Below are positions 29,339-38,985 of a DNA stretch of 43,574 nt, piece by piece. This stretch comes from Granulosicoccus sp. (lineage in GTDB: Bacteria; Pseudomonadota; Gammaproteobacteria; Granulosicoccales; Granulosicoccaceae), in the NCBI GenBank assembly GCA_020627685.1, contig JAHDGK010000005.1:1-43574 (forward strand), read 5' to 3'. How positions within the stretch are numbered: position 1 is the first letter of the stretch; each line of letters starts with the position of its first letter. The position numbers and the translations under genes were made by a program. The notes under the pieces are model-generated. The model was not told the origin of the DNA and did not search any database. It worked only from the letters and a program-made list of their open reading frames with translations.

Positions 29339-30064
29339 ATGTATATAGTTACAGGGGCCTCCTCGGGAATTGGGCAGGCTATTGCACTGGAGTTACTCGC
29401 ACGCGGAGAAGTGGTGCTGGCTGTCGCCAGACGTGAGGATGCCTTTACAGCCCTAGAACACATCCATAGCCATAACCTTATCGGTGTTCAAGCTGATGTG
29501 AGTCATCAGGATGGTATCGAGCGCATTTATCGTGCGGCATCCGGTCAGCCTCTAAAAGGCATCGTTCATTCCGCTGGCTCATCTATTCCCGTAGGGGACT
29601 ACGCATCGGTGAGCCCAGAGAACTTAGTGCACGATATGGCTGTACATGTTGCAGCCCCCATGGCATTGAATAATCGATTTTCAAATCAGCTTGAGCAAGC
29701 GCGTATTGTCTATATCGATTCCTATTCGGCAAGTGATCTCAGAGTCGGTTGGTGCGGCTACTCTATCGTAAAAGCAGCCGCTCAAATGGCTGCCAAGGCC
29801 GCTAAGGTCGAACTCGCACCCGCTGAAATAGTTCGTGTATTTCCTGGTGGGGTGAGAACACCGCTGGTAGAAGCCGTACTGGATTCTGCAACGGACTCAC
29901 CCACATCTGCGATATTCAAAGCCCTGGATGCTGCAGGAAAGCTAGTGCAGCCGATACAGGTAGGTCGTTTTGTCGCGGACATTTTGTTGCACGCAACTGT
30001 TGAACAGTTGGCGGCAAGAGACTTCTGGGATATCAGCAACACGGCTGATAACCCGGTTCGTTAA
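29339..30064 (+). CDS. Short-chain dehydrogenase/reductase
   Basis: The 241-residue SDR has TGASSGIG at 5-12, HSAG at 77-80, a serine in the DSYSAS segment (128-132) and the catalytic Tyr141 and Lys145 in YSIVK. The second beta strand ends in ARRED, which suggests NADP(H) use. The gene begins 12 bases after the hydrolase stop, so the two are probably one transcript, although one product is secreted and this one is cytoplasmic. It could act on the alcohol or acid released by the hydrolase, but nothing in the sequence proves this. It converges on the doeA-like gene with 33 bases between the stops. Confidence 0.88.
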   Translation: MYIVTGASSGIGQAIALELLARGEVVLAVARREDAFTALEHIHSHNLIGVQADVSHQDGIERIYRAASGQPLKGIVHSAGSSIPVGDYASVSPENLVHDMAVHVAAPMALNNRFSNQLEQARIVYIDSYSASDLRVGWCGYSIVKAAAQMAAKAAKVELAPAEIVRVFPGGVRTPLVEAVLDSATDSPTSAIFKALDAAGKLVQPIQVGRFVADILLHATVEQLAARDFWDISNTADNPVR

Positions 30065-30097: not shown

Positions 30098-31261
30098 CTA
30101 CTTGACAGCCAATTTCCTAGGTGTATTACACAAACACTCAACACCTGTCTCAGTAATTAAGATGGGTTCGGTCACTTCTAAGCCACCGTCATCTAGCCAC
30201 AGTGCCGGCATAAAGTGAAACGTCATACCTGCCTGCAAGACGGTTTGATCATTGCCGCGGAATGACATAGTTCTCTCGCCCCAATCGGGCGGATAAGAGA
30301 GCCCGATAGAGTAGCCACAGCGGCTGTCCTTTTCAAAACCTAGCTTGTTGAGTGTGGAGTTAAACGCGTTGGCAATATCCGCACAACGATTTCCAGGCTT
30401 GGCTTGTGCAAGCCCTGCCTCAACGGCCTCTAATACGGCAGCCTCTGCTCGCTTATATTTATCGGGTGGTTCACCTAAAAATAATGTGCGCGATTGAGGG
30501 CAGTGGTATCGCTTGTGAACTCCGGCTATTTCAAAAAACGTGCATTCACCGGACTTCATTGGGCTGTCATCCCAGGTGAGATGTGGCGCCGTCGCATCCA
30601 TGCCGGAAGGTGTTAAAGGTACGATTGCCGGGTAGTCGCCCCAGGCATCTCCGACCCCTTCGATACCTGCTGAATAAATGGCCGCGACCAATTCATTTTT
30701 TCTGAGGCCCGGCTCTGCGCGTTCAAGAATGGTGCGGTGCATATGTTCGACTATGCTGGCAGCTTTACGCATGTAGCTAATCTCGGCGGGACTCTTAACA
30801 GCACGCTGCCAGTTAACGAGGCCGGTCGCATCGACAAATTGGCTATCCGATAAATGAGAACTTAGGCTCGCATGTGCAGCGGCTGAATAGTAGTAGTTAT
30901 CCATTTCCACGCCGACGTGGGACGCACGCCACCCACGCTGCTTTATCAGTGCGGCCAGGGTTTCCATCGGGTGTTTGTCTGGATTCTGTACGTAACTGTC
31001 CTCATACCCGACAACGTTCTCATCGGCCATGATCACAGTACGCAGTGCGCCGAGCGCATCCATACCACGTCCCCACCAAACGGGCTCGCCATCGCTACTG
31101 ACGATGACGCATTGGTGTGTATAAAAGGACCAGCCATCGTATCCGGTTAACCACGCCATATTCGACGGGTCTGATACGAGGAGAAGGTCTATACCTTTCT
31201 CCTGCATCGAATGGCGAGTATTGGCTAAGCGACTCGCATATTCTTCTAAAGAAAAGTTCAT
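30098..31261 (-). CDS. doeA: Ectoine hydrolase-like M24-fold enzyme (DoeA/EutD type)
   Basis: The 387 residues have a creatinase-like N-terminal domain (1-150) and a pita-bread M24 domain (155-385). Long stretches match remembered Halomonas DoeA: DPSNMAWLTGYDGWSFY at 31-47, GVEMDNYY at 117-124, VNWQRAVKS at 149-157, GDYPAIVPL near 208-216, APHLTWDD at 225-232 and GLSYPPDWGERTMS at 320-333. The canonical M24 metal ligands are missing (FEIAG and CPQSRT replace the two Asp motifs; YSIGL replaces the HGIGL His), as in DoeA and creatinase. DoeA opens the ectoine ring to N-acetyl-diaminobutyrate. A GAGGA site precedes the ATG, and the start is 21 bases after the second permease gene, making it the last gene of the transporter operon. 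The deacetylase doeB is not in the window. Confidence 0.82.
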   Translation of the reverse strand: MNFSLEEYASRLANTRHSMQEKGIDLLLVSDPSNMAWLTGYDGWSFYTHQCVIVSSDGEPVWWGRGMDALGALRTVIMADENVVGYEDSYVQNPDKHPMETLAALIKQRGWRASHVGVEMDNYYYSAAAHASLSSHLSDSQFVDATGLVNWQRAVKSPAEISYMRKAASIVEHMHRTILERAEPGLRKNELVAAIYSAGIEGVGDAWGDYPAIVPLTPSGMDATAPHLTWDDSPMKSGECTFFEIAGVHKRYHCPQSRTLFLGEPPDKYKRAEAAVLEAVEAGLAQAKPGNRCADIANAFNSTLNKLGFEKDSRCGYSIGLSYPPDWGERTMSFRGNDQTVLQAGMTFHFMPALWLDDGGLEVTEPILITETGVECLCNTPRKLAVK

Positions 31262-31282
31262 GGAAGTCCTCTGGCAGGGGTG

Positions 31283-32140
31283 CTAGCTGGGCGAGAGTCC
31301 GCGTAGTCGTTCTGAACGTCTTCGAAGCAGTTCCAAGACAGTCAGCAGAATAATAGAGATGGCGACCATGATCGTTGCAACCGCCAGTATGGTGGGTGAA
31401 ATCTGTTCGCGCAGGCCGGTAAACATTTGCCAAGGCAGAGTCTTCTGTCGGGCTGAACCCATGAACAGCACCACGACGACTTCATCGAAGGAGGTAATAA
31501 AAGCGAAAAGAGCACCGGAAACAACACCGGGGATAATCAAAGGCATTTGGACCTTGAAAAACGTAGTAACCGGGTCTGCACCAAGGCTGGCGGCTGCTCG
31601 CGTTAAAGAGCGATCGAAACCAACCAGTGTGGCTGTCACTGTAATAATGACAAACGGCGTACCTAAGGCAGCATGCGCCAGAATGATTCCTAAGTACTCA
31701 CCTTGAAGACCAATTCGGCTGTAAAAAAAGAACATGCCGGCAGCGGAAATGATCAATGGAACGATCATGGGCGAAATAAGAATAGCCATGATGGTTCGGC
31801 GAAAAGGCACGTGGCTTTGAGATAAGCCAATGGCTGCCAAAGTGCCCAATGACGTTGCAATAAGTGTCGCCGCAGGCGCAATGATAAATGAGTTCTTTAA
31901 CGCCTTCTGCCAATCAGAGTTTGTAAAGAAATCATTGTAGTGTTTAAGAGAGTAACCATCTGGACTCAGCGACAGCATCTCAGGTGTAAACGTAAAGAAA
32001 TCCTGTGCATTAAATGACAGAGGGATGATGATGAGAATGGGAGCTATGAGAAAAAACAATATGCCTGCACAAATGACATACCGGAAGGTATAGAACCAAA
32101 TCCGCTGACCTGTAGTTGCATAGGGAGGTAGTGCACTCAT
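31283..32140 (-). CDS. ABC transporter permease, PotC type
   Basis: The 285-residue inner-membrane protein has six predicted helices and the cytoplasmic EAA loop RAAASLGADPVTTFFKVQMPLIIPG at about 195-220, which docks the ATPase. It matches the PotC/YdcV branch of polyamine- and opine-type importers. It pairs with the unusual PotB-type permease upstream (69 bases between them) and is followed by the doeA-like gene after 21 bases. The order ATPase, binding protein, permease, permease, hydrolase makes one complete uptake-and-catabolism unit. Specificity cannot be inferred from the permease alone. Confidence 0.9.
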   Translation of the reverse strand: MSALPPYATTGQRIWFYTFRYVICAGILFFLIAPILIIIPLSFNAQDFFTFTPEMLSLSPDGYSLKHYNDFFTNSDWQKALKNSFIIAPAATLIATSLGTLAAIGLSQSHVPFRRTIMAILISPMIVPLIISAAGMFFFYSRIGLQGEYLGIILAHAALGTPFVIITVTATLVGFDRSLTRAAASLGADPVTTFFKVQMPLIIPGVVSGALFAFITSFDEVVVVLFMGSARQKTLPWQMFTGLREQISPTILAVATIMVAISIILLTVLELLRRRSERLRGLSPS

Positions 32141-32209
32141 GACAAACCATCCTGAATAATCATTAGAAGACGTTGAGCGTTCGCGATTATAGTGAGTTGC
32201 ATTAGATTG

Positions 32210-33829
32210 TTATCCCAGCTTGACGTTGTCGATGCCGACAATGCGATCGTAGGTCCAGTACAGCGCCAATACTAAGACGAGCAATATGGTGCCAAGAGCT
32301 GCGGCTAATCCCCAGTTCAATGACGAACTGATGTGGTAGGCAATCTGATTAGATATGAATACGCCTTTGGTGCCACCGACCAATGCTGGCGTAATGTAGT
32401 AACCGATAGCGAGGATAAAGACCAAAATGGAACCCGCTCCAATACCGGCAATAGTGTTTGGAAAGTAAATTCTCCAGAAGGCGAGAGTATCGCTAGCGCC
32501 CATGGATTTGGCGGCTCTCATGTAGCTCGGAGAGATTGTCTTCATGACCGAGTAAAGCGGCAAAATCATAAACGGCAAGAGTATGTGAGTCATCGCAATG
32601 ATGGTGCCTGTCATGTTGTTGATCATCACTAGCCGGCCATCATCAGCGACTAAGCCTATCCAGACCAGTAGATCGTTGATGACCCCTTGCTGTTGTAACA
32701 GTACCTTCCAAGAGCTGGTTCGCACGAGTAGCGATGTCCAGAAAGGAAGCAAAACCAGAATAAGAATTAAATTGGATGAACGTACTGAAAGTGTTGCCAA
32801 TAAATAGGCAATGGGGTAGCCCAATAAAATACAAGCTAGGGTAATGACGATACTTAGAACAATGGTGCGTACAAACAGTGTGACGTAGAATCGTTCGTTC
32901 GCTGGTTTTTGTTGTACACCGGCTTCGGTTCTTTCGGAATCAACAGCTGCTAAAAAGTAGCTGTCAGTAAAGGCCGGGGACAGGCGTTTGATGGCTTGCC
33001 AGTTCTGAATGTTCACCCAACCTTTTTCAATGTCGGCGAATTGGCCTTTAAAGTCATCCGTTGGAAAGTTATCGATCGCATCAGGTACGCCTGCGAACAA
33101 ACTCGCAATCGCTGAATCAGAGCTTTTAGCTAGATTATTAAGCGCGCCGTTTTCCATGCTTGAAAGATCATGAAACAAATTGGCGTAAGTAAAACCATAA
33201 GGCACTTGAGTGGAAGGGTCTATATCGTCGCCTTCCTCTGATGCCAGCCACGCTTTCCAATTATCAAATGCGATGGCTGTTTGTGGAAAACTTTCAGGCC
33301 ATTGCGCAGAGCTTGTGAGGGTCGTCCATGCGTCAGGGGTGCCCCAAGCTGCATTGAGAGCAATAAACGCATCCTTGGAGGCGTCGCTGTCCAGTCTCTT
33401 TATTCTTCGGCCGGATTTACGAAATACGCTGGATATGCCTGGTTGGTCGTAATTGATACGAGTACCAATTCGCGTATGAATCTTTAGTTCTTGCGCTAGC
33501 ATCATGTCATCGGCCAGTGCGCTAAAAACGCGTTCACCAGGAACTTCATCCGACTCAGAATCCCAATCTTGCAACGCGACTACCGTACCTGGCAGCGTCT
33601 TTTCCACAATAGAGTTCTCGACAGAGCGAAACAGCATATCGCCAATCGGGAAAATGAACGTAATAAGGACGAATGCCAACAACGGCAGGATGAGGAAAAG
33701 GGCCCTGATTTTTTCGCGCCTTAGCGCTCTACCCAAACTACGTTTGAGAGGCTGCCCGTCTTTTGTGGTTAACGGTGCGCCTTGGGCAAGCTCGGAGGTA
33801 TTTGAATCTAGTGCAGTGGATGCGGTCAC
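32210..33829 (-). CDS. ABC transporter permease, PotB type, with large periplasmic insert
   Basis: This 539-residue permease is nearly twice the usual PotB size. Helix 1 is at about 43-63. Residues about 64-318 are polar and follow it directly, so they should face the periplasm. The remaining helices start at about 322 and include the EAA loop MRAAKSMGASDTLAFWRIYFPNTIAG. Ordinary PotB-type permeases have roughly 50 residues between helices 1 and 2, so the insert is about 200 residues. It contains many Trp, Asp and Ser residues but no cysteine, and I do not recognise a domain. It could help the binding protein dock or contact substrate. Start is a GTG at 33829 with a GGAG six bases upstream. 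Confidence 0.85.
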   Translation of the reverse strand: MTASTALDSNTSELAQGAPLTTKDGQPLKRSLGRALRREKIRALFLILPLLAFVLITFIFPIGDMLFRSVENSIVEKTLPGTVVALQDWDSESDEVPGERVFSALADDMMLAQELKIHTRIGTRINYDQPGISSVFRKSGRRIKRLDSDASKDAFIALNAAWGTPDAWTTLTSSAQWPESFPQTAIAFDNWKAWLASEEGDDIDPSTQVPYGFTYANLFHDLSSMENGALNNLAKSSDSAIASLFAGVPDAIDNFPTDDFKGQFADIEKGWVNIQNWQAIKRLSPAFTDSYFLAAVDSERTEAGVQQKPANERFYVTLFVRTIVLSIVITLACILLGYPIAYLLATLSVRSSNLILILVLLPFWTSLLVRTSSWKVLLQQQGVINDLLVWIGLVADDGRLVMINNMTGTIIAMTHILLPFMILPLYSVMKTISPSYMRAAKSMGASDTLAFWRIYFPNTIAGIGAGSILVFILAIGYYITPALVGGTKGVFISNQIAYHISSSLNWGLAAALGTILLVLVLALYWTYDRIVGIDNVKLG

Positions 33830-33841
33830 TTAGTGCTCCGG
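33830..33841 (-). promoter_or_regulatory. Ribosome binding site of the PotB-type gene, repeated in an upstream hairpin
   Basis: On the minus strand the bases read CCGGAGCACTAA directly before the GTG start; GGAG is the Shine-Dalgarno core, six bases from the start. The first 11 bases (CCGGAGCACTA) occur again as the 5' arm and loop start of the hairpin at 33953-33975. The hairpin's 3' arm is therefore an exact 9-base complement of this site and could mask it. Confidence 0.7.
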
Positions 33842-33952
33842 ATGACATGCCGAACAATCAAGTTGCAAAGGTAGCGAGCTGCCTCTGAAACCAAAACGTG
33901 GACAATCAAGAAATTAATATCAGACCAGAAGATTACCAGCCTTTAACGCAAA

Positions 33953-33975
33953 CCGGAGCACAAATAGTGCTCCGG
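33953..33975 (-). terminator. Perfect 9-bp hairpin between binding-protein and permease genes
   Basis: CCGGAGCAC, a five-base loop, and GTGCTCCGG form a perfect stem 63 bases after the binding-protein stop. Only three T residues follow on the transcribed strand, so it is at best a weak intrinsic terminator. It may instead protect the 3' end of the binding-protein message, a common way to make more binding protein than permease. Its 3' arm is also complementary to the downstream ribosome binding site at 33833-33841, so an alternative pairing is possible. Confidence 0.7.
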
Positions 33976-34038
33976 CGGGTATTACTGCTTCAATATCGCT
34001 AATACCGCGTCGATATCAAAGTGACTTATTGCGAAAAC

Positions 34039-35169
34039 TTACTGAGAAAGCCAAGTTTGGAATTTCGCGTCAAGATCGTCACGGTTGTCAGCCCACCACT
34101 CGTAGTTGTACAAGAAGGTGTTCTTAGCGTTGTTAGGATCGGTAGGCATGTGTGGAGCCATATCGATACCGAGCTCCGCGTGCTTACCAACCAAAGGCGC
34201 TGAAGATGCACGAGCAGGACCGTAAGAGATGTACTTAGACTGGTCAGCTAGGCGCTGAGTGTCTGTAGCAAATTTTACGTAGTGCAGTGCGCGAGCTGTA
34301 CGAGCTTCGTCAAGACCAGTAGGGATGATCCAACCGTCAAGATCGAATACCTGTGCGTCCCACAACATAGCGACTGGTTGCTTCTGCTCTTCGATGAGTG
34401 AGAAGAAACGGCCGTTGTAGGTAGAACCCAACAGAGCTTCAGAATCGGCTAGCAGCTGAGGAGTTTCAGCACCTGCTGACCACCAGATAACGTCGTCACG
34501 GATAGTGTCGAGTTTGGCTAGAGCCTGAGCAACACCTTCGTCAGTGCTTAGTACGTCGTATACGTCTTCCTTTGCAACACCGTCACAAAGCAGAGCCCAT
34601 TCAACATTGTTGATAGGACGCTTTTCTAAAGAACGCTTGCCAGGGAAAGTTTCTGTATCGAAAACTGCACATACGTCAGAAGGTACAGCACCATTCCACT
34701 CAGCTACGTCTGTGCGATAGCCCAGTGTTGTTGAGTAAACGATTTGTGGGATGAAGCAATCAGAAACGAGTAGGTCGCCGAAATCTTCTGACGCTGGCGT
34801 GCCATCTGGAGCAGCAGCTAGCTGAGTGTCAGCATCGATTTCCATGGCTAAGCCTTCGTCACAAAGACGCATGGCATCAGCAGCAACAACATCAACGACG
34901 TCCCAAGTGACGTTGTTGGCTTCGTTCATTGCACGCAACTTAGCAACCGCTTCAGCTGAAGACTCGTCGTTGACAATTTCAACGCCAGTCATTTCGCTGT
35001 AGGGGTTGTGATACGCCTGAAGCTGAGAGTTTGAGTAAGCACCGCCCCAAGAGACGATGGTCATCTGGTCCGCGCAATCTTCACAGGCGGGTAGTTCATC
35101 GGCTGCTGTCGCAACCATAGCAACTGCGCTAAGTGCAAATGCACTAGCCAGTCCGGCAGTAAATTTCAT
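34039..35169 (-). CDS. ABC transporter periplasmic substrate-binding protein, PotD type
   Basis: The 376-residue protein has a signal peptide (1-23, ending VATAA) and the PotD/SBP_bac fold, with a VSWGGAYSNSQ start of the mature domain and a GWIIPTG segment in the second lobe. The mature N-terminus has a CEDC pair, and about four further cysteines are spread along the chain, more than PotD usually has, so disulfides are likely. The ligand should be a small cationic or zwitterionic organic nitrogen compound. The doeA-like gene in the operon makes ectoine or hydroxyectoine a candidate. A strong GAGGAG site lies seven bases before the ATG. Codon choice looks more uniform than in neighbours, which suggests high expression. 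Confidence 0.88.
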   Translation of the reverse strand: MKFTAGLASAFALSAVAMVATAADELPACEDCADQMTIVSWGGAYSNSQLQAYHNPYSEMTGVEIVNDESSAEAVAKLRAMNEANNVTWDVVDVVAADAMRLCDEGLAMEIDADTQLAAAPDGTPASEDFGDLLVSDCFIPQIVYSTTLGYRTDVAEWNGAVPSDVCAVFDTETFPGKRSLEKRPINNVEWALLCDGVAKEDVYDVLSTDEGVAQALAKLDTIRDDVIWWSAGAETPQLLADSEALLGSTYNGRFFSLIEEQKQPVAMLWDAQVFDLDGWIIPTGLDEARTARALHYVKFATDTQRLADQSKYISYGPARASSAPLVGKHAELGIDMAPHMPTDPNNAKNTFLYNYEWWADNRDDLDAKFQTWLSQ

Positions 35170-35227
35170 TAAGGATCTCCTCTGTTGGTCCGCGTAAAGC
35201 GTAACATAAGCTCGGCATGAGTCCAGT

Positions 35228-35258
35228 GCCTAAACCGCACTAATACAGGGATTTAGGC
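35228..35258 (-). promoter_or_regulatory. Inverted repeat in the binding-protein gene leader
   Basis: GCCTAAA and TTTAGGC form a 7-bp inverted repeat separated by 17 bases, about 60-90 bases before the binding-protein start. It may be an operator half-site pair or a leader hairpin. A second, 6-bp hairpin (ACGACA/TGTCGT) lies at 35306-35323, nearer the ATPase stop. The 191-base gap is long for an operon and could hold a second promoter. Confidence 0.4.
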
Positions 35259-35360
35259 GGCTCATTTCACACTTGTTCGCCCATTTAATGAGCAACGGGC
35301 GGTTTACGACAGGAACGTGTCGTTTGTGGTCAAGTTGTAAACTAACGCAAAATTAATTTG

Positions 35361-36482
35361 CTAGTTGACCGGGTCGAGTGCTTTAGCGTCTTCAGCGCTC
35401 CAGCCGAGGTTGTAGGTATTGCCTTCAACCGGAATAGTGGAGCGGCCTCCATTGGGTACCTTGACGATGAACTCGTCGTTTCCAGCCACTGCCATAACGA
35501 TTCGTAAATGGTCACCCAGGTAAAGAACCTCTTTGACCACGCCTGGGACCATATTGTCTCGTTGCTCGGTGGGCTCAAGTTCGATTCGCTCAGGGCGTAA
35601 AGACAGCGTAGAGCGAGAGCCGACGTCGCCGATATTGACTGCTTGCGATTGGACTTTAGTGCCATCATCCAGCGTCATGGAGCAAATGTCGTTGTTGATA
35701 TCGGTCACTACCCCAGACAGTTTGTTGTTTTCGCCAATGAACTGCGCAACGAATGAATTTTGCGGGCTTTCGTACAAGGCATCGGGTGAGGAAAGCTGCT
35801 GAATGACACCATCCTGGAATACCGCTACCCGATCGGACATGGTGAGTGCTTCGGTCTGATCGTGTGTGACATAGACGACACTGACCCCAAGGCTTTCATG
35901 AATGTGTTTGATTTCATACTGCATTTGCTCACGCAGCTGCTTATCGAGTGCACCTAGTGGTTCGTCCATCAATACTAAGTCGGGATCGAATACCAGCGCA
36001 CGGGCTACAGCAACACGTTGCTGCTGACCGCCGGATAGTTGCGCGGGACGGCGATTGCCGAAGGCGCCTAACTCAACCATGTCCAAGGCGCGTTTAACTT
36101 TGGCGTCTCGTTCACTCTTGCCCATCTTGCGAATTTCAAGAGGAAACGCCAGATTTTCCGCCACACTCATGTGCGGGAAGAGGGCGTAGTTTTGGAACAC
36201 CATGCCGATACCGCGCTTTCTGGGCGGTACATTATTAATAGGCTTATCGTTTAAAAATATTTCCCCGTGCGTGGCAGGTTCGAAGCCTGCGAGCATCATG
36301 AGGCAGGTTGTCTTGCCGGAACCCGAAGGCCCGAGCATGGTGACGAACTCGCCCGGTGCAATGTTTAGGTTGAGGTCTTTGACAACTAAAACTTCGCCGT
36401 CGTAGCTTTTTTGCACGTGTTCAAAACGAACCGCTGCGCCTCGAATACCAGACGATGAATTTGCGTTGCTTGCTGAGCTCAT
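35361..36482 (-). CDS. ABC transporter ATP-binding protein, PotA type
   Basis: The 373-residue ATPase energises the import system. Walker A is GPSGSGKTT at 51-59, the Q-loop is FQNYALFP near 96-103, the signature is LSGGQ at 149-153, Walker B is LVLMDEP at 169-175 and the H-loop is His207. A TOBE regulatory domain covers about 250-365. The sequence is a typical PotA. It is the first gene of the five-gene minus-strand unit. The 255 bases upstream, to the SLC13-type gene, should carry the operon promoter; they contain ATATCGCCT twice and a CGCCTcaAGGCG palindrome near 36651, but no clear Shine-Dalgarno sequence before the ATG. Confidence 0.93.
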   Translation of the reverse strand: MSSASNANSSSGIRGAAVRFEHVQKSYDGEVLVVKDLNLNIAPGEFVTMLGPSGSGKTTCLMMLAGFEPATHGEIFLNDKPINNVPPRKRGIGMVFQNYALFPHMSVAENLAFPLEIRKMGKSERDAKVKRALDMVELGAFGNRRPAQLSGGQQQRVAVARALVFDPDLVLMDEPLGALDKQLREQMQYEIKHIHESLGVSVVYVTHDQTEALTMSDRVAVFQDGVIQQLSSPDALYESPQNSFVAQFIGENNKLSGVVTDINNDICSMTLDDGTKVQSQAVNIGDVGSRSTLSLRPERIELEPTEQRDNMVPGVVKEVLYLGDHLRIVMAVAGNDEFIVKVPNGGRSTIPVEGNTYNLGWSAEDAKALDPVN

Positions 36483-36737: not shown

Positions 36738-38591
36738 CTACATGAAGAAATTCATAACCAGCAAAGTGACGACTAGGTATAAAATTGTCATCACGCCACC
36801 GACTCGCATGAAGTCGGCCACGCTGTATCCGCCAGGGCCCATAATCAGTGCATTGACCTGATTTGTCGGAATTAGGAAGGCATTGGACGTTGAGATGGCA
36901 ACCGTCAATGCAAACATGGCGGGGTCTGCACCAATAGAGACTGCGATATTCACCGCTAATGGAACTAATAAGACAGTTGCACCAATGTTGGACATAACCA
37001 ACGTGAAAAATGTGGCTAAGCCTGCAATAACCGTTTGCATGACCCAAATGGGGACATCGCCAATAAGCGCCAGCAGGTGTCCGGCTATCCACAGTGCCGA
37101 TCCTGATTGGTCAACAGCGATGCCCAGAGGGATCAGGCATGCCAGTAGAAATACCGTTTGCAGGCTGACAGAGTTATAAGCCTCGTCGATCGTGAGAACA
37201 CCGGTCAGAATCATGCCTAATGCACCGGCGAGAAGAGAGATGGACAGTGTGTCTGTCAGCATAAAGAGCACAAGGGACAAAAAGAAAAAGAATAAGGCGG
37301 GTTTTAATTTGTCATCCCTTAAATCTTCATACTTCACATCAGTGGCGACAACAACGTCACGGTTGGCTTTGAGTTTGTTGAGGTCTTTCCAGCTTGAGTG
37401 AACTACAAGCGTGTCACCCGAGTGCAGCACCGTATCGCGAAACCCGGTTTTTATCACCTGATCGGCACGGTAAATCTGCATGATATTAGTGCCGAAGTTT
37501 CGTCTTGGTTTGATATCTCCAATTGCTTTGCCCACCAATGACGAAGCGGGCGGAATAACGATTTCGCCGATGCCGCTGTATTGCGGATTAAGTACTTTTG
37601 AAAAGCGGTCCGGTTCACCGCGTAGTTTCCAGTGGTACTGCTCACAGAATGCTTCTACTTCATCTTGATTGCCTAGTAGGCCCAGCCGCGTGTTTACCCA
37701 GACAGTCTCTTCCCGGTCGGGTGGAATCTTGACGACGTCACCGCTATACAGCGCCAGAATGAAAGGCATGTTGGGGTAGGTTTCTTCAATCTGATGAATA
37801 CTCATACCGACCATTGGGCTCTCAACGGTGATTTGAGCTTCCAGCAGCTCACCACTGATACCGTAAAGGCTCTGGAAGTAATCGTCTGTTCGGGACGTTC
37901 GATTGGAGTCAGGGTCGTGCTTGGGAAGCATGAACCTCCCGACGACCATAAAATAAAGTAGGCCGGAAAAACTCAAAGCTGCCCCGATAGGCAACACCGC
38001 GAAGAGGCCGAAGCTCTCCATGTGCAAACTCTCGGGCAATTGAGCGTTTGAAGAGACGATCAGATCGTTAAGCAGAATCAGCGGGCTTGACCCTATCATG
38101 GTAGCCGTACCGCCCAGAATGATGCAGAACCCGACCGGCATGAGCAGTCTGCTCATAGGAATTCCTGTGCGGGCCGAAACCCGGCTGACAACCGGCAGGA
38201 ACAACGCAGCTACACCGATGTTCTGCATAAAGCTTGAGGCCAAGGCCGCGATGGCCGACATGACCGGACTTACACGCGCTTCACTCTTTCCACCGATGCG
38301 TAATATGAGTTGCGCAAGGCGACCCATCAGGCCGGTTTTGTCGAGGCCACGCCCAATGATCATTACACCAATGATGGCAATGACAGCGTTACTGGAAAAC
38401 CCCGAGAAAAGCTCGTTCAGACTCAGGATGGGGTCAATTCCAGGTACGCTGGAAACCAGCCCGAGTGTGACCATGACAATCATGGCAACGACGTCAACCC
38501 GCACCTTGGAAAAGGCGAACATATAGACAGTCACTGCGAGCAGGAATAGCACGATGGCCATTTCCACTGATAGTGAGACTGTTTCGTTCAT
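36738..38591 (-). CDS. SLC13/DASS-type anion transporter with two RCK_C (TrkA-C) domains
   Basis: From the ATG at 38591 the protein has 617 residues; a TTG at 38630 would add 13 unlikely ones. It consists of membrane helices at about 10-195, two soluble RCK_C domains at about 215-290 and 305-385, and a second helical block at about 405-615. This is the layout of the divalent anion/sodium symporter (sulfate, dicarboxylate) branch with inserted regulatory domains. The TSNAFLIPTNQVNALIMGPGGY stretch near the C-terminus is the conserved transport motif, with an SSxxxI-type counterpart at about 165-180. The substrate is probably sulfate or a carboxylate. It lies 255 bases upstream of the ABC operon and could read into it. 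Confidence 0.88.
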   Translation of the reverse strand: MNETVSLSVEMAIVLFLLAVTVYMFAFSKVRVDVVAMIVMVTLGLVSSVPGIDPILSLNELFSGFSSNAVIAIIGVMIIGRGLDKTGLMGRLAQLILRIGGKSEARVSPVMSAIAALASSFMQNIGVAALFLPVVSRVSARTGIPMSRLLMPVGFCIILGGTATMIGSSPLILLNDLIVSSNAQLPESLHMESFGLFAVLPIGAALSFSGLLYFMVVGRFMLPKHDPDSNRTSRTDDYFQSLYGISGELLEAQITVESPMVGMSIHQIEETYPNMPFILALYSGDVVKIPPDREETVWVNTRLGLLGNQDEVEAFCEQYHWKLRGEPDRFSKVLNPQYSGIGEIVIPPASSLVGKAIGDIKPRRNFGTNIMQIYRADQVIKTGFRDTVLHSGDTLVVHSSWKDLNKLKANRDVVVATDVKYEDLRDDKLKPALFFFFLSLVLFMLTDTLSISLLAGALGMILTGVLTIDEAYNSVSLQTVFLLACLIPLGIAVDQSGSALWIAGHLLALIGDVPIWVMQTVIAGLATFFTLVMSNIGATVLLVPLAVNIAVSIGADPAMFALTVAISTSNAFLIPTNQVNALIMGPGGYSVADFMRVGGVMTILYLVVTLLVMNFFM

Positions 38592-38985
38592 TAGTAGAGG
38601 TCTGTGTTCGGGAAAACAGCGGGCGCGCAATGCTTAATCGATGCGCATAGAGGGTGGTTTGGCAAGTACTGCGCCAGTTCGATGGCAGTTATTCGGCCCG
38701 GCGTCGTGAAACTCAAAATTAGTGGTCTATAGTTTAATGGGTCTGGCCAACCTTCAGACGGTACAGCTGACGACCAGTCGGTGAGTGCGGGCGGTGCCAG
38801 AACGACGCCGTAGCGGTAAATTATGACACTCAATTTCGTGACTGATCGTCACGATTGGTTCCACCGATCGGCAAGTAGATGTGCCCAAACATAATTGATC
38901 AGAATTCAACCGGTTTCTAATAAAAATTTGCGGCCTGAGATGACGTTAAATAAAGACTCACTCATGAAGGCCCGCTGACAAAAAC
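38592..38985. other. 394-base intergenic region without a convincing gene
   Basis: This divergent gap lies between the transporter and the unknown gene at 38986. An 80-codon minus-strand frame from a TTG at 38833 ends one base into the transporter start, but it has no ribosome binding site or recognisable domain. On the plus strand TTGATC at 38895 and TAATAA at 38918, 17 bases apart, could be a weak promoter. A TAGTTTAATGG string near 38730 recalls a tRNA D-arm, but no T-arm follows. Confidence 0.5.

Follow-up and report, generated by a model that had tools for sequence, protein, structure and literature searches.

Two kinds of binding-protein-dependent importer have been linked to ectoine catabolism genes, EhuABCD, which is of the amino-acid type among ATP-binding cassette (ABC) systems, and UehABC/TeaABC, Ueh being a tripartite ATP-independent periplasmic (TRAP) transporter; in the canonical ectoine cluster the gene for ectoine hydrolase (DoeA or EutD; PDB 6twj, 6twk, 6yo9) lies beside doeB. 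The transport passages of a 2018 review find that, in 122 of 539 predicted ectoine degraders, the catabolic genes have no adjacent transporter, and suggest that further importers may await discovery (PMC5924519). In its corresponding passages a 2026 survey names only Ueh-, Tea-, Ehu-, ProU- and BCCT-type systems; that survey focused on genomes with EutD, EutE and EutB together, and scattered pathways like the one below could therefore be missed by it (PMC13188858). Here we describe a 43,574-nucleotide stretch of Granulosicoccus sp. (the window, positions 1-43574 of contig C42, GenBank JAHDGK010000005.1) in which doeA, rather than adjoining doeB, is the last gene of a predicted ABC importer operon whose binding protein is of neither the Ehu nor the Ueh type and falls in SBP_bac_8. 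The window comes from a draft assembly (G000; 4.93 Mb, 117 contigs, 99.5% complete). Among the leading matches of a literature search with most subscription papers outside it, there was no published description of a Pot-type or GABA-type (gamma-aminobutyrate) importer beside doeA. We favour, with a confidence just short of even, a zwitterion importer operon that probably carries ectoine and to whose 3′ end an alphaproteobacterial doeA was added.

Operon layout and the enzyme

The operon lies on the minus strand. Its first gene encodes a PotA-like ATPase with a TOBE_2 domain (35361..36482; 373 amino acids; PF00005 and PF08402), followed by a periplasmic binding protein of the GABA/opine branch of SBP_bac_8 (34039..35169; 376 amino acids; PF13416, 178.6 bits), permease 1 with a PotB-like core (32210..33829; 539 amino acids) and the PotC-like permease 2 (31283..32140; 285 amino acids), both permeases matching PF00528 (BPD_transp_1). 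The last gene is doeA, for an ectoine hydrolase of M24 fold (30098..31261; 387 amino acids). Gaps calculated from the open reading frame (ORF) coordinates are, in operon order, 191, 209, 69 and 21 bases, the shortest separating permease 2 from doeA, and the sequence AGAGGA can be read shortly 5′ of the doeA ATG. An earlier note, made from the sequence of the window, had named these five same-strand genes in this order with 21 bases before the last, and the ORF ends and families agree with it. An identical five-gene order was found in five further genomes, therefore not by chance, and we infer that the five genes are co-transcribed.

The enzyme does belong to the ectoine hydrolase family, as the earlier note had proposed. 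It is full-length and scores 648.5 bits on TIGR02993 (ectoine hydrolase DoeA; curated cut-off 613); its best solved relatives are the DoeA structures 6twk/6twj at 536 bits, against 61 bits for creatinase 1chm. All 81 columns that are invariant in an alignment of 54 doeB-linked DoeAs are retained, and the five other operon copies retain 80 or 81 of them, while three other M24 proteins of the same genome retain 16, 31 and 21, counts that come partly from shorter aligned stretches. A mis-read M24 peptidase or creatinase, the grouping against which the note's call had to be checked, is ruled out by these results together with the placement of the protein in the DoeA clade of the tree. Hydrolysis of ectoine to N-alpha-acetyl-2,4-diaminobutyrate (N-alpha-acetyl-DABA) is accordingly the predicted reaction. 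The nonsynonymous divergence (dN) from the five operon relatives is 0.14-0.17; the synonymous divergence (dS) was not computable in these five comparisons.

The DoeA tree was made by a quick method from 109 rows, after removal of 22 identical rows and exclusion of matches shorter than 330 residues. The six operon DoeAs form one clade (support 99) nested within an 86-row, mainly alphaproteobacterial clade (99), and stand apart from a clade of 14 rows (100) from the window's own family, one that contains the DoeA of a full TRAP-type cluster in the relative G020; their exact sister within the 86-row clade is weakly supported (82). This position points to horizontal acquisition of the operon doeA, probably from Alphaproteobacteria, with inheritance thereafter. 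On the operon tree the presence of doeA requires at least two changes. In genome_contigs, where DoeA loci of 80 of 405 relatives were kept, one locus of the 80 has this operon (L011, from an uncultured Granulosicoccus), and its DoeA has the same sequence as the DoeA of G043, which belongs to the window's genus. Further pairs of a transporter gene and doeA were seen at L181 (G015) and L182 (G013), where a DoeA 70-71% identical to the window's lies beside a gene for a permease of major facilitator superfamily (MFS) type or a TRAP-like one, doeB not being nearby.

The importer and its binding protein

The earlier note had called the transporter Pot-type, and this is correct of the ATPase and permeases as a broad family but not of the binding protein. 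The importer shares superfamily and gene content with PotABCD/PotFGHI, and the ATPase passes the cut-off of the potA subfamily (TIGR01187; 366.7 bits, cut-off 355.6), but it falls below that of the PotA equivalog (NF006987; 359.3 against 482), as do permease 1 for PotB (NF007044; 160.9 against 348) and permease 2 for PotC (NF007047; 149.6 against 326). The binding protein has no NCBIfam family match at 0.001. A profile of 30 of its homologues scored 339 bits against 8jv1, a structure titled 'Structure of the SAR11 PotD in complex with GABA', 221 and 215 against GABA sensor chains, 201 against Atu4243 and 94-182 against further chains that are opine-type or uncharacterised, compared with 14-34 for the listed PotD-, PotF- and SpuD/E-type chains (E. 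coli PotD 29, PotF 19). Its predicted structure (mean predicted local distance difference test, pLDDT, 89) likewise matched 8jv1 best (Z 38.5 over 336 residues, 3.6 Å), followed mostly by the GABA/opine group with some uncharacterised chains, and lower by PotD, PotF and SpuD/E (Z ~25-28). By profile and model it belongs to the GABA/opine branch and not with PotD/PotF. No paper describing structures 8jv1-8jv4 was found.

SAR11 PotD and the GABA-binding proteins Atu4243 and Pf622 are among the best structural and sequence matches, and an Arg, an Asp, a Trp and a Tyr of their site are kept. The GABA contacts described in the relevant section on iGABASnFR2 are W9, T13, F100, Y102, W202, R205, D228 and Y264, D228 holding the GABA amino group and Y102 being an engineered F102Y (PMC12999171). 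Mapped by reading an alignment, their equivalents in the window binding protein are W41, Y45, I143, Y145, Y251, R254, D278 and Y316. W41, R254 (for R205), D278 (for D228) and Y316 are the same as in the sensor and invariant in 30 of 30 homologues, and Y145 matches the engineered Y102; the remaining three of the eight positions differ (T13 to Y45, F100 to I143, W202 to Y251). A second acid, D276, stands two residues before D278, the sensor having the D278 equivalent only, and could hold an amidinium or guanidinium group. Ectoine is zwitterionic, its charged groups being a carboxylate and a positive nitrogen group. The pocket residues fit a ligand of this kind, without singling out ectoine.

Permease 1 has a long N-terminal part, its PotB-like core being restricted to residues 312-529; complete homologues in other families have about 415-440 amino acids.

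Distribution among relatives

We examined a family sample of 48 genomes and a class-wide sample of 369. The binding protein was found at E≤1e-60 in 43 of the 48, and at E≤1e-90 in 24 of the 369. The closest form of the operon (binding protein at ≥77% identity, with potA, potB and potC) occurs in 15 genomes, all of one genus, and six of these have doeA at its end (G000, G020, G021, G043, G044, G045). Four others (G022, G029, G030, G038) have a different DoeA elsewhere in the genome, and the remaining five (G023, G024, G025, G033, G034) have no DoeA at E≤1e-60. Absence beside the operon is seen with downstream sequence only in G033 and G024 of these five; contigs of G034, G023 and G025 end at potC, and we do not count their absence as proven. 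Outside the family, operon-side doeA was not seen in the six best loci, one of which has a contig that stops at the first permease, or in nine more. Three of the operons without doeA (G022, G029, G030) have an SDR-sized gene (short-chain dehydrogenase/reductase) after potC (L173:10503-11261, L174:4136-4927, L177:3248-4036), those of L173 and L174 resembling D-xylose 1-dehydrogenase with scores below cut-off.

Two other ectoine genes, doeB and doeD, have largely the distribution of operon doeA. Across the 15 closest operons, doeD is found over cut-off in all six genomes with operon doeA and in none of the nine without, and doeB in five of the six and none of the nine; the one-tailed probabilities of these tables are 0.0002 and 0.002, uncorrected for kinship. 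For four genomes (G021, G043, G044, G045) the operon copy is the sole DoeA at E≤1e-60, and doeB lies at a separate locus, where the sequence retrieved around it holds no homologue of doeA, ueh or eutABC; in G043 its upstream neighbor is an aldo/keto reductase gene. The case for the operon as an ectoine route is strongest in these four. Neither a UehA orthologue (E≤1e-40) nor EhuB (E≤1e-30) was found in them or in G000, no search aimed at BCCT, ProU, MFS or further TRAP carriers having been made. Ectoine synthase matches none of the six doeA-operon genomes; G023, G024 and G025 do match.

The earlier note had also asked for Pot-type ABC genes beside doeA elsewhere. Besides the order kept in six genomes, importers of PotA type with an SBP_bac_8 protein stand just upstream of doeA at L024 and L058 (Alphaproteobacteria) and L154 (G004), with one gene in between, which in L024 is doeD on the opposite strand. 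The binding proteins of L024 and L058 are 76% identical to each other, and all three are unrelated to the window's beyond short weak matches; these loci lend independent support to the general idea of a recruitment of this transporter superfamily for ectoine.

Other ectoine genes and surroundings

The earlier note had listed doeB and doeD as missing. The first of these absences stands and is weighed below; doeD is on the same contig, beyond the window and 13.6 kb upstream of potA (C42:50066-51433; NF005684, 820.6 bits, cut-off 687). We took NF005684 as DoeD from its position beside doeA and doeB in G020 and at further loci. In the tree the DoeD of G000 stands closest to that of G037 and not to the DoeDs of the other doeA-operon genomes, so the history of doeD differs from that of doeA. 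DoeB of the operon-doeA genomes groups with other DoeBs of the same family, while DoeA and DoeD of four genomes fall near the same alphaproteobacterial lineage (weak supports of 82 and 83). On these differing placements we rejected an arrival of doeA, doeB and doeD as one package. No full Ehu or Ueh system with a complete doe set was found elsewhere in G000, another point on which the earlier note held.

An ABC importer of PhnS/U/T type adjoins doeD in G000 (C42:45672-50036, L225), outside the window, and G021, G043, G044 and G045 have an orthologue within a few kb of doeB. We considered it as an ectoine carrier and rejected it as not specific, its binding protein occurring in 36 of the 48 family genomes (E≤1e-60), with and without ectoine genes.

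Upstream of the operon, on the same strand, is a gene like CitMHS/TrkA_C anion transporters (36738-38630), and on the downstream side an SDR gene (29339-30064) converges on the operon and stops 33 bases short of doeA. From the upstream gene onward (C42:36738-55000) gene order is the same as in contig C44 of the sister genome G033, with two differences: doeD is absent from G033, and one gene of 518 amino acids is split into two ORFs. A scan for promoters and terminators showed no enrichment relative to shuffled sequence (7 against 10.5 and 10 against 9.4).

Discussion

The window's importer would be an ABC system belonging to the PotABCD superfamily, with a binding protein for small zwitterions (a carboxylate combined with an amine, amidine or guanidine) and not for polyamines. 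An alphaproteobacterial doeA would have joined the 3′ end of its operon in an ancestor of part of Granulosicoccus; the importer would most likely carry ectoine, probably among other zwitterions, DoeA would open the ectoine ring to give N-alpha-acetyl-DABA, and a deacetylase and DoeD, encoded elsewhere, would continue the breakdown. For G000 we infer that the deacetylase step is present, and two DoeB-like deacylases (C34:40354 and C109:65261), 33-35% identical to doeB of G020 and G021, are possible stand-ins for DoeB. The ectoine import and catabolism unit that the earlier note had proposed stands in that DoeA is a conserved operon part in six genomes; import is plausible, short of proof, and we put import of ectoine by this operon at about an even chance.

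Several observations weigh against ectoine as the ligand or against a complete pathway. No doeB exceeds the cut-off in G000 (best 240.8 and 226.6 bits against 402.7). The sister G033 (binding protein 93% identical) has the operon with an empty site between potC and the SDR gene where doeA would stand, and its genome lacks doeB and doeD over cut-off as well as any doeA at E≤1e-60. The importer has a wider distribution than doeA and exists without it, and the six doeA-operon genomes are related, leaving no more than 2 independent contrasts on the tree, not enough for a statistical test. A TRAP-type ectoine cluster (ueh-eutABC-doeAB-doeD) is present in G020, which would therefore have no need of this importer. 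The binding protein has no column that is fixed in the six genomes with operon doeA yet absent from the nine others, and pocket residues are identical with and without operon doeA across the 15; nothing therefore indicates adaptation to ectoine. Finally, in G033 a creatinase gene lies 21 bases before potA (L169:4637-5848), after the anion-transporter gene, and among 43 binding-protein loci, a chosen set with unequal flanks, some cut by contig ends and two from one genome (G311), six have doeA, three creatinase and seven sarcosine oxidase genes, and 27 none of these.

Creatinase is an M24 enzyme, as is DoeA, and converts creatine to sarcosine. That of G033 scores 514-569 bits against three solved creatine amidinohydrolases; a creatinase 73% identical to it precedes potA in G031 (L180:4371-5597), and a homologue of 65% identity stands directly before a binding protein of about 50% identity in G311 (L251:8479-9693). 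NCBIfam gives these genes no creatinase label, merely a weak PepQ match. Sarcosine oxidase genes of soxBDAG type directly follow potC in five of their seven loci (L255, L263, L266, L267, L268); in L267 soxB, soxD and soxA are over cut-off and soxG under it. A gene for a MocR-family regulator lies upstream in L267. The importers of such loci (G033, G031, G311, G015 and others) share with the window's an orthologous or homologous binding protein and mostly the whole importer, and differ in that their enzyme partner acts on creatine or sarcosine, not ectoine. These neighbors tie the wider family of the importer to small zwitterions, the creatinase genes being the strongest clue to its wider ligand range. 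Two M24-related genes were seen apart from these: G000 has a creatinase homologue 57% identical to that of G033 (C23:25876-26916; L003, L253), with no such importer recognised in the surrounding 19 kb, and in G094 an M24-type gene of 19% identity to DoeA (L260:4557-5747) lies near a potA homologue beside a binding protein of 52% identity.

It is quite possible, though we would not bet on it, that the importer carries creatine, sarcosine, GABA or a similar compound and not ectoine, which would enter by another carrier, DoeA having been placed downstream for expression only. The GABA and opine ligands of the nearest solved binding proteins, the creatinase and sarcosine oxidase neighbors, the pocket unchanged by doeA and the wider spread of the importer are all as this explanation would have them. 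It accounts less well for the retention of doeA at the operon end in six genomes, in four of which no second DoeA and no binding protein of Ueh or Ehu type was found, doeB and doeD lying elsewhere. Ectoine metabolism is moreover chemically close to that of such ligands; in the part of the source that treats them, features common to the pathways for GABA, ectoine and taurine are noted, and DABA is described as an analogue of GABA (PMC5320631). That doeA in G000 is a leftover, doeB having been lost and catabolism being broken or stopping at N-acetyl-DABA, seems improbable: the low DoeB scores and the sister without doeA, doeB or doeD speak for it, and against it are the full set of DoeA invariants, the dN to the five relatives, a doeD over cut-off on the same contig, the two deacylases that could take over, and the draft state of the assembly.

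The names of the genes might suggest a true polyamine importer, with doeA there by chance, and the ATPase does pass the potA subfamily cut-off; the binding-protein profile, with its far higher scores against the GABA/opine/SAR11 PotD group than against PotD/PotF/SpuD/E-type chains, makes this very improbable. Three SBP_bac_8 proteins predicted for polyamines are moreover reported, in the sections that concern them, to favour GABA or 5-aminovalerate, and one of the three to bind spermidine weakly (PMC11113362). We give hardly any credence to a DoeA-like hydrolase redirected to another cyclic amidine, which horizontal arrival and a new genetic setting would allow, considering that all invariants of doeB-linked DoeAs are kept and that the gene is co-distributed with doeB and doeD. 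The zwitterion importer with an added alphaproteobacterial DoeA remains our preferred reading, ectoine being its presumed ligand.

Between the sister genomes G000 and G033 the enzyme partner of the operon has changed. A broader and more doubtful proposal is that ABC importers of amidino, guanidino and amino carboxylates (creatine, ectoine, sarcosine, GABA) form a class in which operons exchange one first enzyme for another to suit the ligand, here a creatinase at the 5′ side in one genome and, in the sister genome, an ectoine hydrolase at the 3′ end. The 'spermidine/putrescine' labels on this branch of binding proteins are probably wrong. With a candidate importer and doeA in one operon, the question can be tested with one purified protein. 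If true, ectoine uptake by importers of this class would add another route to those of Ehu, Ueh/Tea and BCCT, and the dispersed pathway of these Granulosicoccus genomes, with its first enzyme in a zwitterion-importer operon, may be a so far unrecognised route of ectoine uptake and use.

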